64,000 bases of DNA, taken from an uncultured Bacteroidota bacterium. Its GTDB lineage: Bacteria > Bacteroidota > Bacteroidia > Bacteroidales > UBA12077. Each line of letters opens with the position of its first letter. Position 1 is the first letter of the stretch. Of the stretch, positions 26,235 to 39,227 are shown one piece after another. The stretch is from contig CAJXLK010000022.1 in the NCBI GenBank assembly GCA_913055635.1, forward strand, positions 1 through 64,000, read 5' to 3'. Under the pieces are notes generated by a model, which was given only the letters and a program-made list of their open reading frames with translations, was not told the origin of the DNA and ran no database searches. A program made the position numbers and the translations under genes.

Positions 26235-26267
26235 TTCCGGCACTTAGAACAGGTTCCTGGCCATTCA

Positions 26268-26545
26268 TAAGGATATACTTTAATTAACAGCTTGTAACTC
26301 AATATGGTCTGAATCTTAAAACAGACATTATGTGGTCAATCATTATGGAACCCGCATGTTTATTCATGTCCTTGTTGTGTAAGTCCTTGCATGCGGGTTT
26401 CATTCATATAAAGTTTAATTAACGTTCTGTATTTCAGTATAATAATAGCAAACAATTCGTTGGTCTCGGTAACTTCTGCCAGGGAACCCCCATGCTTTAC
26501 TTGTTGCCTTGTTGTGTCTGTTACTGGATGGGGGTTTCATAAAAA
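26268..26545. repeat. Left array of the covarying hairpin family (2 units)
   Basis: Two hairpins, with stems 26349-26358/26390-26399 (AACCCGCATG with CATGCGGGTT) and 26485-26493/26528-26536 (AACCCCCAT with ATGGGGGTT). Both contain CCTTGTTGTGT, the reverse complement of the family loop ACACAACAAGG. The period is 136 bp and the segments between hairpins are homologous to those of the right array. The stretch is a near-collinear inverted copy of about 36815-37079, by eye close to 90% alike. No gene is visible in 26235-26687 otherwise. Confidence 0.85.
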
Positions 26546-26915: not shown

Positions 26916-27088
26916 AGGCGAATGGTTGACCCTTAGTTTTGTATGCAAGTTATCCATGCATTGTTTAAATGAATGAACCATTAAACTAATGATACCCCCT
27001 TACCATCGATGATTGGATAGGGAGGCTTCATCAAAATCAACCAAAATTTGGGGTTTAACCATAAGTTTTAATAAGTCTTTCTAAAAAG

Positions 27089-27138
27089 AACCCGCATGCA
27101 CTGTCTCATTTGACAGGGACCAGGCATGCGGGTTTTTT
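27089..27138 (+). terminator. Terminator-like hairpin after the SHOCT gene
   Basis: AACCCGCATGC at 27089-27099 pairs with GCATGCGGGTT at 27124-27134, with an inner CTGTC/GACAG hairpin, followed by a run of T. The outer stem resembles that of the covarying hairpin family, but the ACACAACAAGG loop is absent. Confidence 0.55.
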
Positions 27139-27237
27139 GGGCGGATTCCTCGTTAATTTGGCGCATTCATTGTTAATCATTTGATCTTCCCCGGAATTAA
27201 GCCACCATCTTTAGATGGGAGACGCTGTCCATTTTTA

Positions 27238-27358
27238 ATGAGGCCCATCCCCAATAGACCGGCCGGGGTGTTTTTATATGAGGCCCATCCCAATAGACCG
27301 GCCGGGGTATTTTTATATGAGGCCCATCCCCAATAGACTGGCCGGGGTATTTAAAATG
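27238..27358. repeat. Three tandem ~40-bp repeats before the HMA/CopA genes
   Basis: Units start at 27238, 27278 and 27317. Each contains ATGAGGCCCATCCC(C)AATAGAC followed by TGGCCGGGG or CGGCCGGGG and an AT-rich tail. The array ends about 80 bases before the HMA gene start. Even spacing near 40 bp (about four helical turns) and the position suggest protein-binding sites, perhaps for the HMA-AraC regulator; otherwise it is a simple tandem duplication. The rest of 26916-27436 has no visible gene. Confidence 0.75.
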
Positions 27359-31865: not shown

Positions 31866-31964
31866 TTTCCCGGTCAATCCAAATCAAACCCACATGCACC
31901 AACCTGCACAATAAGGCTGTGTATAAATCATGTGGGTTCATTGAAATGTTTCCCGGTCAATCCA
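31866..31964. repeat. Single hairpin copy flanked by a 16-bp direct repeat
   Basis: The hairpin AACCCACATG (31887-31896) with CATGTGGGTT (31929-31938) has loop CTGCACAATAAGG, close to the family loop. It lies between two exact copies of TTTCCCGGTCAATCCA at 31866-31881 and 31949-31964. The right copy covers the stop codon of the C1 peptidase gene. The arrangement looks like an insertion that duplicated its target, or a duplication around the hairpin. Confidence 0.75.
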
Positions 31965-33891: not shown

Positions 33892-34003
33892 CCCCGCTTA
33901 GCGGACCCCCGCTTAGCGGGGTACCGGACCCCCGCTTTACCGGACCCCCGCTTAGCGGACCCCCGCTTAGCGGACCCCGCTTAGCGGACCCCGCTTAGCG
34001 GGG
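33892..34003. repeat. Array of seven CCCCGCTTAGCGGGG-type palindromes
   Basis: Copies start at about 33892, 33907, 33930 (decayed: CCCCGCTTTACCGG), 33946, 33961, 33975 and 33989. Spacing is 14-16 bp except for one step of 23. The complete form is a hairpin with a 6-bp stem and TTA loop. This is the densest cluster of the family. A separate hairpin TGCGGGG/CCCCGCA lies at about 33774-33789. No gene is visible in 33680-34123. Confidence 0.9.
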
Positions 34004-34123
34004 TAAATTCTAGCGGGATCATGTTTTAAAGCTCCCTGCTGAGTATGTGCCAAGTTAGAGAACTCCAACCAGCCTTGATCTGGATCGTTTTTGCCGTGGA
34101 TGGGGAGATTGCCCACAAGGGCC

Positions 34124-36354: not shown

Positions 36355-36814
36355 GTTGCTTGATTGAATATATTTGACCGGCTTTTAAAACCGGTTGGTT
36401 GATTGATGTTTCCCGTCTTCCACCCCGGTTGGTATCCCGGTTTTTTATGTCTCCATATACCAGCTACTTGCTTGATCTTTCAAAGAATCTGTCCCCTGTT
36501 TGCTTACTCAATTTTAGATGTCTTCAAATACCAGGGGCTTGCTTAATTTTATACGGCTCAATATCCTTCCTGACAGGTATCTTTTGCCCGGCTGCCAGGC
36601 GCAGCAAACATCGCCCGGGCTGACATTGTTCTTCTGTTTACCTCGGGCTGATTATTATAACAAAATATTCTTCACTATATTTGCCGGATAAAGTTAAGCA
36701 TTTCCGAACAGAAGAAAAACGAAAATATACAACCTCCACGATCAAAATGGCTCGAGCGGGAAATGATGATTTGATCTGGAGGGTGGCCGGTGAGTCAATC
36801 AGAAATTGATTGCA
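36355..36814. other. Non-coding stretch left of the right hairpin array
   Basis: No convincing gene. It holds two diverged copies of a ~35-bp sequence (TTTTATGTCTCCATATACCA near 36445 and TTTTAGATGTCTTCAAATACC near 36511), a 10-bp inverted repeat (TTCTTCTGTT at 36629 and AACAGAAGAA at 36708), and TATATTTG near 36675, a match to the -7 element without a good upstream element. Confidence 0.45.
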
Positions 36815-37146
36815 TGAAACCCCCATACAAATACTTACACAACAAGGCAATGAATAAAGCATGGGGGTTCCATGGCAGAGGTTACCGAGACCAACGAATC
36901 ACATACTATTATTATACTGAAATACAAACTGTTAATTAAATTTTATGACGAATGAAACCCGCATGCAAGGACTTACACAACAAGGACATGGATATACATG
37001 CGGGTTCCATAATGATTGACCACATAATGTCTGTTTTAAGATTCAGACCATATTGAGTTACAAACTATTAACTAAGTTATCTCCTTATGAAACCTGCATC
37101 CAGTGTACTACACAACAAGGAAATGATTATTCCATGCAGGTTCCAT
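36815..37146. repeat. Right array of the covarying hairpin family (3 units) before metG
   Basis: Hairpin stems: 36818-36826/36861-36869 (AACCCCCAT), 36956-36965/36997-37006 (AACCCGCATG) and 37091-37099/37134-37142 (AACCTGCAT), each with its exact complement. All three loops contain ACACAACAAGG. Periods are 138 and 135 bp. The sequence between hairpins is repeated too, so whole units were amplified. Compared with the left array the sequence is inverted. The array ends 33 bases before the metG ATG. Confidence 0.88.
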
Positions 37147-37182
37147 AAGGCCAAAAAATTAAATAAAAAAGGAACTGTATGA
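37087..37182 (+). other. 31-codon upstream ORF overlapping the metG start
   Basis: The last hairpin unit contains an ORF starting MKPASSVLHNKEM whose TGA overlaps the metG ATG as ATGA. Comparable ORFs starting MKP....LHNK occur in the other array units. The ATG is part of the hairpin stem, so the ORF may be a by-product of the structure. It could still couple translation to metG. Confidence 0.35.
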
Positions 37183-39227
37183 AAGACCCCAAAAGATATC
37201 TTGTTACCGCAGCGCTGCCTTATGCCAATGGCCCCCTGCACATTGGCCATATTGCCGGGGCTTACCTTCCCGCCGACATATATGTACGTTACCTGAGGCT
37301 GAAGGGCAAAGATGTGGCCTTCATATGTGGCTCCGATGAACACGGGGTCCCCATTACCTTGAGATCCCGAAAGGAAGGCATATCCCCCCAGAAGATTGTC
37401 GACAAGTATCATGAGATCAACCGCAAGGGTTTTGAAGATCTGGGCATTGAATTTGATATTTACCACCGTACTTCCGATCCCCTCCACCACCAAACGGCAT
37501 CCGATTTTTTCAGGACCCTCTATGAGAAGGGTGAATTTGTGGAAAAAGAGGAAGAGCAGTTCTATGATGAGGCGGAAAACCAGTTTCTGGCCGATCGATA
37601 TATCGTGGGAACCTGCCCCCACTGCAATTATGATAAAGCTTATGGTGACCAGTGCGAGCAATGTGGCGCCAGTCTGAGCCCCAAAGAGTTGATTGATCCG
37701 GTTTCTGCCCTTTCCGGGAATAAACCCCAGCTGAAGCGGACCAGGCACTGGTACCTGCCCCTGGACAAGCATCAGGATGAATGGCTGGAACAGTGGATTG
37801 ACAGCCACAGCCAGGACTGGAAGTCCAATGTGTATGGTCAGTGCAAATCGTGGCTGAACCAAAGATTGCATCCCCGGGCTGTGACCCGCGACCTGGAATG
37901 GGGCGTGCCCGTGCCGGTGGAAGGAACTGAAGGTAAGGTGCTTTACGTATGGTTTGATGCCCCCATTGGTTATATTTCCGCAACCAAGGCCTGGGCCGAA
38001 CAACAAGGCAAAGACTGGGAGAAATACTGGAAAGATGAAGAAACCAGCCTCATACACTTCATCGGAAAAGACAACATTGTGTTTCATTGCCTGATTTTCC
38101 CCTCTATGCTGAAGGCCCATGGCGGTTATATCCTGCCCGACAACGTGCCTGCCAATGAATTTTTGAACCTGGAGGGGGATAAACTCTCAACATCCCGAAA
38201 CTGGGCGGTATGGATCAATGAATTTGTGGAGGATTTTCCCGATAAGATCGATACCCTGCGTTATACCCTTGCGGCCAACTTCCCCGAGCAAAAAGACAAT
38301 GATTTTACCTGGAAAGATTTCCAGAACCGCCACAACAATGAGCTGGTAGCGGTGTTGGGGAATTTTGTAAACCGGGCTTTGGTGCTGACCAAGAAATACT
38401 TCAACAAACAGGTTCCTGAGGTCACCGAATGGACCGATTACGACCGGGATATCATCCGGCGGGCTGCACAGATTAAGGAAGATCTGGAGGACCGCATTGA
38501 ACATTATAAGTTCCGCGAAGCCGTTAAGCTGGCCATGGACATTGGACGGCTGGGCAACAAGTACCTGGCCGATACCGAACCCTGGAGCCTTTATAAGGAG
38601 GATCCCGGCCGGGTAGCTACCATCCTGAACCTGTCTTTGCAGTTGGCTGCCAGCATATCCATTGTGATTGAGCCTTTCCTTCCATTCACGGCCGAACGCC
38701 TGCGCAATTTCCTGAACATCGGACAATTGAACTGGGAGCTGGCCGGAAAGCCCGACATCCTTAAGCCCGGCCATGAGGTGAAAAAGCCCAAACACCTTTT
38801 CCAGAAGATTGAAGACCAAACCGTTGAGCGGCAACTGGAGAAGCTCAAGGAGGCCCGCCGTAAAAAGGAACAGGAAGAGCAGGGCGTTGAGCCGGCCAAG
38901 GAGAACATCAGTTTTGATGATTTTAGCCGCCTTGATATCCGGGTGGGCCAGATCCTGGAAGCCGAAAAAGTGCCAAAGACCAAAAAATTGATGAAATTAA
39001 CGGTCGATACCGGTTTGGATCAACGTACCGTTGTGGCGGGCATTGCAGAACAGTTCTCGCCCGAGCAGGTCAGGGGCAAACAGGTCAGCATTGCGGTTAA
39101 TTTGGAGCCCAAAAAGATCAAGGGCATCCAGAGCCAGGGCATGATCCTGATGGCTGAGGATGCCCAGGGCAACCTTACCTTCCTTAGCCCCGGCACCCCA
39201 ACCCAGAAAGGCGCTGTGGTGAAGTGA
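37179..39227 (+). CDS. metG: Methionyl-tRNA synthetase
   Basis: A 682-residue MetRS, which charges tRNA-Met. Motifs: the HIGH-type [20 protein letters not shown] near the start, zinc-binding knuckles [18 protein letters not shown], the KMSKS-type loop [11 protein letters not shown], the anticodon-binding helical domain, and a C-terminal tRNA-binding OB domain ([19 protein letters not shown] onward, EMAP-II/Trbp111 type) fused after a Lys/Glu-rich linker. The domain order is that of long bacterial MetRS. It is preceded by the hairpin array and an overlapping short ORF; both could matter for expression. After the stop, two imperfect ~35-bp direct repeats (AGCAAGGAT...) occur at 39228 and 39263. 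Confidence 0.97.

Follow-up and report, generated by a model that had tools for sequence, protein, structure and literature searches.

Hairpin units at metG and at other gene starts form a family of putative site-specific mobile cassettes in one bacterial order

Immediately upstream of metG, in an uncultured Bacteroidota bacterium, three hairpins follow one another that share a loop and differ in their stems. The locus raises the question of what kind of element these hairpins belong to and how such elements came to lie against the start of a housekeeping gene. We analysed the whole stretch of 64,000 nucleotides in which they occur (contig CAJXLK010000022.1, positions 1 to 64,000), here called the window. 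A sequence-only reading had listed six such hairpins in it, and a covariance model built from 58 copies of the same genome found all six in place, with E-values from 1.7e-19 to 8.5e-14 (the six are themselves among the 58 model copies). The loop motif ACACAACAAGG occurs exactly five times in the window, against a shuffle mean of 1.14 with one mismatch allowed. No matches at the gathering score were obtained with Rfam 15 in the window, and phage and plasmid records gave no match to positions 36810-37190.

The region before metG reads as a row of units, all on the plus strand. The native leader ends in ATACAA (36727-36732), a decayed ancestral metG start recognised by eye in a comparison of five genomes, with the letters checked. 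It is followed by a presumed old, degenerate unit (36733-36817, also by eye) with an imperfect hairpin, CCTCCACGATCAAAAT..ATTTGATCTGGAGG, then GGCC and an ATGA end; the covariance model reported no match there. Hairpin 1, of subfamily C, covers 36814-36873 with its left ATGA, and together with a C linker (GGCAGAGG...) and a terminal ATGA it makes up unit 1 (36818-36955). Hairpin 2, of subfamily B (36952-37010, left ATGA included), belongs to unit 2 (36956-37090), with a B linker (AATGATTGACC...) and again a terminal ATGA. Hairpin 3, of subfamily A (37087-37146, left ATGA included), opens unit 3 (37091-37182), which has an A linker (AAGGCCAA...) and a terminal ATGA whose ATG is the start codon of metG. 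The three hairpins were placed by the covariance model. The metG frame, for methionyl-tRNA synthetase, runs from 37179 to 39227, starting within the last 4 nt of unit 3, and matches the Pfam families tRNA-synt_1g (7.5e-161) and Anticodon_3 (3.2e-22).

Elsewhere in the window, the model placed two hairpins in a minus-strand array of two units, C then B (26265-26536): a subfamily C hairpin that opens it (26481-26540) and a subfamily B hairpin in the second unit (26345-26403). The last ATGA of this array, at 26268-26265, opens a frame of only 26 codons, so the array end is not a gene start. The sixth hairpin (31883-31942, plus strand, covariance model) is single and divergent, with ATCA on its left and no recognised right end. 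In G002 and G003, two genomes of the same genus, no unit was found at the counterparts of 26265-26536 and 31883-31942. The divergent hairpin is bracketed by a perfect 16-bp direct repeat (TTTCCCGGTCAATCCA) at 31866-31881 and 31949-31964. We also noted a terminator-like hairpin at 27085-27138, which has the shared AACCCGCATGC stem, a different loop and then T's, and a 39-nt tandem repeat in about three copies at 27231-27352.

In the 4.08 Mb of the source genome (G000), ACACAACAAGG occurs exactly 84 times, against 3 times for the reversed pattern. The covariance model gave 143 matches there at E<=0.01, probably including some reverse-strand shadows, and 102 copies were located in the retrieved stretches. 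Other genomes of the genus gave 92 (G001), 66 (G002), 44 (G003) and 27 (G004) matches, with 150 candidates scored per genome. Outside the genus the family is patchy: under stricter filters, 23 of the 98 genomes searched had a match at E<=0.001, the genus itself counted, and 75 had none. The larger sets came from G031 (47 copies), G067 (21), G062 and G096 (11 each), G035 and G082 (8 each) and G015 (7), with 2 copies in G051. Among the matches listed by a DNA-pattern scan of genome contigs, many were isolated ones from unrelated organisms. The set collected for analysis holds 246 copies from 13 genomes, all of one order. It leaves out four near-identical copies of G067 (L369, L371, L372, L373), weak or cut matches (L157, L002 1076, L028 1543, window 27085, L006 1881, L150 747), overlapping loci (L007 and L008 among them), reverse-strand shadows and a 31-bit match in L117/L191. 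The sequence-only reading had proposed a covariance-model search of this kind, naming copies restricted to one locus with random stem changes as an outcome that would speak against its claim; the search recovered the family in the source genome and its relatives, dispersed over both. A literature search outside subscription journals and preprints found no publication on hairpin repeats inserting at start codons. As far as genome sequences can tell, the units are a real, sizeable family of site-specific hairpin cassettes, and start codons are a frequent landing site.

Each unit is made up of a hairpin and a linker of 25-80 nt with an RTGA end, and stands 3' of an NTGA. The order within a unit is AA-stem-CATG, the loop (CACAAnAAGG and ATG), CATG-stem-TT, a foot CCAY directly after the stem, the linker and the terminal RTGA. 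Linkers of type A measure about 31 nt and contain GGCCAA, those of types B and C about 76-78 nt, and each type ends in ATGA. Most copies are units with linkers, often in head-to-tail tandem arrays, in which the next hairpin or host sequence follows directly after ATGA. When right ends were located by the linker motif, without use of the tetramer, an end was assigned to 167 of the 246 units and none to the other 79; the right tetramer was ATGA in 117, GTGA in 20 and something else in 30, of which 11 read TGAA, probably a one-base slip of the motif. Their left tetramer was ATGA in 129 and GTGA in 20. After an NTGA unit end the next base was A in 135 of 137 units, so the insertion site lies between NTGA and A, mostly ATGA/A. 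The two ends of a unit are unlike each other, the hairpin being on the left and the linker on the right.

Two related arrangements were seen. At L139 (G000 C1:42643) a CCACCTGGCAGCGA-type minisatellite seems to stand in the place of the hairpin's linker. The other arrangement concerns a second family of hairpins, long-stemmed (ATGAAACGTCCATGACAAAA...) and usually with the loop CACAAAAG, whose linkers are of the same kind and whose ends are also RTGA; its members share mixed arrays with the first family (L144, L147, L173, L179, L182, L184, L188, L194, L104, L106).

To describe the fold, we counted stem pairs by distance from both ends, without an alignment, in all 246 copies (150 distinct combinations of genome and arms from the 13 genomes). 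The pairs at stem positions 2-3, 5-6 and 11-13 were nearly fixed. Two-sided changes were found at position 7 (CG, GC, TA), 8 (CG, AT, TA, GC), 9 (CG, TA) and 10 (GC, CG, TA, AT). Over positions 7-10, 188 copies were fully Watson-Crick, 20 more paired with a wobble and 38 were mismatched, 24 of these in the source genome. Among the 44 distinct combinations of the four-base arms, 13 were fully Watson-Crick, ranging from CCCG/CGGG and CATC/GATG to GTCG/CGAC and TGCA/TGCA. The loop had CACA in 220 of the 246 copies, with ATG 3' of it in 203. Thus the conserved loop with compensating stems, first proposed from six hairpins, is borne out across 13 genomes at positions 7-10.

Within the source genome, an alignment of 58 sequences (48 distinct) contained two stem pairs that change on both sides. 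Cells changed on both sides numbered 25, against a shuffle mean of 4.5, and none of 500 shuffles reached that count; the covariation score was 0.116, against 0.065 when shuffled. In this alignment the shuffles were not exceeded in the number of pairs changing on both sides (2, against a mean of 1.8) or in that of additional pair types (8, against a mean of 8.0). In 82 clean copies of the same genome, both variable pairs were Watson-Crick in 58 (shuffle mean 24.1, maximum 37), 12 had a wobble and 12 a mismatch. The many rare mismatched stem forms are what recombination between subfamily halves, or the decay of old copies, would be expected to produce, and the mismatched combinations of left and right arms in the source genome are plausibly recombinants between subfamilies. 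The earlier claim that the fold itself is selected therefore holds, in the sense that the fold is under selection or was so when the subfamilies formed. Its companion hint about which strand folds, drawn from an A-C off-pair, is not supported, and either strand may be the folded one: the base concerned, at position 4 (A-C in 128 of 150 distinct arm pairs), comes from the target according to the boundary analysis, and the off-pairs at positions 9-10 on the ACACAACAAGG strand (T-G 22 and G-T 1, against C-A 7 and A-C 1) point in the opposite direction.

The comparison of five genomes at metG shows where the units lie. Upstream of metG, G003 reads ..GAAAAT-ATGAA-AGAGCC with no unit, and G001 and G004 likewise join the native leader to the start. 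The source genome reads ..GAAAAT-ATACA-ACCTCC..units..ATGAA-AGACCC and G002 reads ..GAAAAT-ATGAT-GCGGCC..GGCC..ATGAA-GGACCC, the oldest unit of both being recognised by eye only. The ancestral start is ATGAAA in G003, G001 and G004, against ATACAA in the source genome. The units thus lie exactly within the start codon, with the old start, now decayed, on their left and the new one on their right. For seven further genes (metF, larC, moxR-like, cysK-like, cinA-like, metE and nadE-like), 21 sister-species matches taken as orthologues were inspected over 260 nt, and none had a unit touching the start; metF of G002 had one unit further upstream, ending at another ATGAA.

Start codons are over-represented at array ends. 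In the genus there were 137 array ends, 114 with an ATGAA boundary, a number that is not an independent count of the target since the search looked for ATGAA; the count by the motif rule over 167 units is. A frame of at least 60 codons, or of at least 30 running off the locus, opened at 61 of these 114, which makes 61 of the 137 ends overall. As a control, 11 of 56 non-disruptive ATGAA sites in the window were gene starts and 45 were non-coding, unit-internal sites included. The excess had p 1e-10 against a null of 25%, an estimate that leaves the unit-internal ATGAA words of the window uncounted (11/56 without this correction), and p 0.004 against a generous null of 40%. The downstream gene was on the strand of the unit in 93 of 122 placed arrays, a count that leaves aside 12 arrays at an edge and 3 that lie within a frame. 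Ten genes starting at unit ends matched Pfam, nine over the cut-off, and eight of these matched within the first seven residues, which makes the unit-borne gene starts credible. Array-internal units included, 46 of 96 A-type, 14 of 23 B-type and 42 of 48 C-type units were not at gene starts. The excess of start codons could come from selection against other insertions.

The origin of the right end was examined in 20 units of G031. Of these, 16 have ATGA on the left and one each GTGA, CTGA, TTGA and ATAA, and the right tetramer begins with GTG in 17 and with ATG in 3. A right GTG despite a left ATGA means that the right end is borne by the unit and is not a target duplication. A long frame opens from the unit's GTG in 12 of the 20, mnmE among them (TrmE_N 4.4e-43). 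Given the retained left ATGA, it appears that the unit end can change a start codon from ATG to GTG in this genome.

The foot after the stem varies together with this end, being mostly CCAT in units ending in ATGA and mostly CCAC in those ending in GTGA. With the first end-finding rule and all units, the last foot base and the first base of the unit's own right end were T-A in 122, T-G in 3, C-A in 6 and C-G in 20. A second rule, which assumes [AG]TGAA, adds 55 units; with both rules and the second hairpin family, G031 omitted, the counts were T-A 172, T-G 5, C-A 4 and C-G 9 (Fisher 1.8e-9), Fisher values here being overstated because copies are related. Three of the nine C-G cases are single copies in G003, G035 and G015 and six come from the second hairpin family, which by itself gave T-A 3, T-G 1, C-A 0 and C-G 6, with one end reading GTAA. 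Under the first rule alone, G031 omitted, the association was not significant (p 0.12). Against the left flank the foot gave p 0.21 over all units and p 0.019 without G031, on six C feet. The CAY of the foot adjoins the unit's own RTG only when the ends of the unit are joined, which leads to a model with a circle or tandem junction. The covariation of CAY with its own RTG suggests that the mobile form is such a circle or tandem junction.

The units are, in our judgement, probably non-autonomous, site-specific mobile cassettes that insert 3' of NTGA before an A and bring their own RTGA end. Sequence comparison shows the repeat family, its boundaries, the covariation, unit-free sites and a right end borne by the unit; from these features we infer a start-codon swap during insertion, a circle, single-strand processing and the class of the enzyme. 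Insertion would occur 3' of NTGA followed by A, mostly at ATGAA, without duplication of the target, the left NTGA being the old site and the right RTGA the unit's own end. ATGAA is common as a gene start, so a unit landing there would not alter the encoded protein. The previous start codon would be displaced upstream along with the native leader, the unit end would become the new start codon (ATG, or GTG in G031), and the unit would serve as the new 5' leader. Each new RTGA would again be a possible target, giving head-to-tail arrays. Selection would most likely act on the hairpin formed at the junction of an excised circle, or of a tandem array, with a trans-acting enzyme processing it in single-stranded form.

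A different source of movement, an atypical REP family mobilised by the lineage's own TnpA_REP (RAYT), is suggested by the palindrome, the high copy number and the tetranucleotide at the foot, and by a RAYT-like protein encoded in G002, G003, G004 and, in two pieces at contig ends, G000. This protein, of 194-205 aa where whole, carries NHFH and YIHQNP. Passages of PMC6006769 give YIH[QN]NP and NH[LIV]H as motifs of RAYT subclass 2.6 of Bacteroidetes, whose genes are reportedly flanked by "atypical secondary structures"; compared with these passages, the Y motif fits and the HuH letter F falls outside. A RAYT connection had also been raised from the sequence alone, but none of the 47 retrieved Y1/RAYT loci (21, 16 and 10) contained a unit; some of these loci overlap or come from family-free genomes, with flanks of about 1.5 kb or less, several ended by the contig, and scanned with a model (R1) that covers one hairpin family. 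Other palindromes stand there instead, differing from genome to genome, on both sides of the RAYT-like gene in G003 and G004 and upstream of it in G000 and G002. NF047646 matched at E<=0.01 in 8 of 10 carriers, never over its curated cut-off, and G062 and G096, which are 98-99% complete with 11 copies each, had no Y1/RAYT match by PF01797 or NF047646. We had considered RAYT to be absent from G002, G003 and G004, which lack a PF01797 match, and dropped this when NF047646 matched each. The tetramers 5' of the stem, ATGA and GTGA, are not GTAG or GTGG either, and movement by RAYT appears unlikely to us.

The palindromes beside the RAYT-like gene form a second repeat family, with CCCCGCTTAGCGGGG in the source genome, GCGCTTAGCGC in G003, CCCCTTAGCGG in G002 and CCGGTCCGACCGG in G004. 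It is seen in the window at 33892-34016 and near 795, 48661, 52220 and 60501, and at L009, L419, L420 and L422, and has the look of a REP set that belongs to the RAYT and varies from species to species. At L335 (G067) a RAYT-like domain lies in frame inside a long open frame (775 codons or more) that looked like a DNA methylase on inspection by eye; the domain is placed between the in-frame repeats TIQSRDALG and SIPAGG. Among the ten clusters listed from 478 frames at 164 loci, nothing transposase-like shared beside the units was seen by eye.

The position of the units directly before start codons, on the strand of the gene, would also fit a 5'-UTR RNA under selection, which would act as a translation switch or a leader frame, would have spread through gene conversion or duplication from time to time, and would pair its CCAU foot with the start codon. 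RNA folding z-scores for three window copies were -2.0 to -5.5 on both strands, and in the genus of the source genome the displaced start opens a leader frame of about 24-42 codons, mostly ending in the linker. However, the leader frame is not general: it has four codons in G082, and in G051 and G062 it meets a stop within the hairpin (by eye). Many units lie away from gene starts, such as those at 26265-26536, and among the 20 G031 units there are 5 that pair a CAC foot with a GTG end while standing away from any gene start. An RNA leader seems to us quite improbable. Two narrower proposals were rejected: a leader peptide, whose frame is open through the hairpin in the genus of the source genome but meets stops inside it in other lineages, and an ATGA serving as a stop/start overlap for translational coupling, as described in passages of PMC6728339, since a leader frame stopping at the TGA of the closing RTGA was seen in 1 of 138 units.

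We give similarly little weight to a cassette moved by a tyrosine recombinase or by a bridge-RNA recombinase of the IS110 kind, with the crossover at RTGA/A. The conserved shape with a variable stem, the cassette arrays, the core shared by both sides and the absence of target duplication would suit it, but the targets are dispersed, no attI-like platform was seen and the units hold no long gene. A classical MITE moved by a DDE transposase can be set aside as extremely improbable: the units are small, dispersed and palindromic with similar short tetramers on both sides, but their ends are unlike, without terminal inverted repeats or a matched duplication, and in G031 the right tetramer does not follow the left (ATGA on the left in 16 of 20, GTG on the right in 17 of 20).

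If mobile, site-specific cassettes are the correct reading, they would show how a genome can accept numerous insertions next to housekeeping genes (metG, mnmE, metE), leaving the genes unbroken and exchanging their 5' leaders; the starts and leaders of genes there could then be of imported origin. A start-codon-targeting element whose end becomes the new start would have an unusual habit for a mobile element. The units would also give a natural setting in which selection on a DNA hairpin, and guide-like pairing of the foot with the element end, could be put to the test, with a possible site-specific activity at ATGAA.

Among known systems, REP/REPIN sequences with TnpA_REP are alike in being high-copy, intergenic, non-autonomous palindromes with a foot tetranucleotide and presumed single-strand processing. 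The units differ in having no GT[AG]G foot, one hairpin with a long loop and a defined 3' end with its own RTGA; they stand at RTGA/A, often at start codons, and they occur in two genomes without a detectable RAYT and away from the tnpA_REP genes scanned, where REPtron copies would flank the gene. Elements of the IS608 type keep the target tetranucleotide on the left and bring their own on the right, without target duplication. In this respect the units are like the IS200/IS605 family, having a fixed 5' target tetranucleotide (NTGA/A), a unit-borne right RTGA and no duplication. A guide sequence that pairs with the cleavage site is described for IS200/IS605 in passages of PMC8266576; in the units the complementary foot is found on the 3' side of the stem instead of the 5' side. 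They also have one hairpin per unit, at the left end, in place of two, and no Y1 gene was detected in two near-complete carriers. Integron attC cassettes are recognised by structure over sequence and stand in tandem arrays. Unlike these, the units have no gene inside and no platform was seen, and AAC/GTT is not invariant (AAG stems in G096, AAT in G051; boxes compared by eye). The TAACTGA repeats of Beggiatoaceae, which according to PMC4679880 form sets no more than several nucleotides ahead of start codons and are present in some Bacteroidetes too, are plain heptamer direct repeats, in contrast to hairpin units with defined ends. The units thus resemble REP- and IS200-type elements in logic but depart from defining features of both. 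We tentatively propose that they may be mobile elements of a new class with start codons as their homing target: RTGA/A would be recognised, integration would proceed from a circle by way of its junction hairpin, the native start codon would be displaced, and the gene would receive a start codon (even GTG in place of ATG) and a 5' leader from the unit's 3' end, all by means of an enzyme outside the Y1/RAYT, DDE and integron types.
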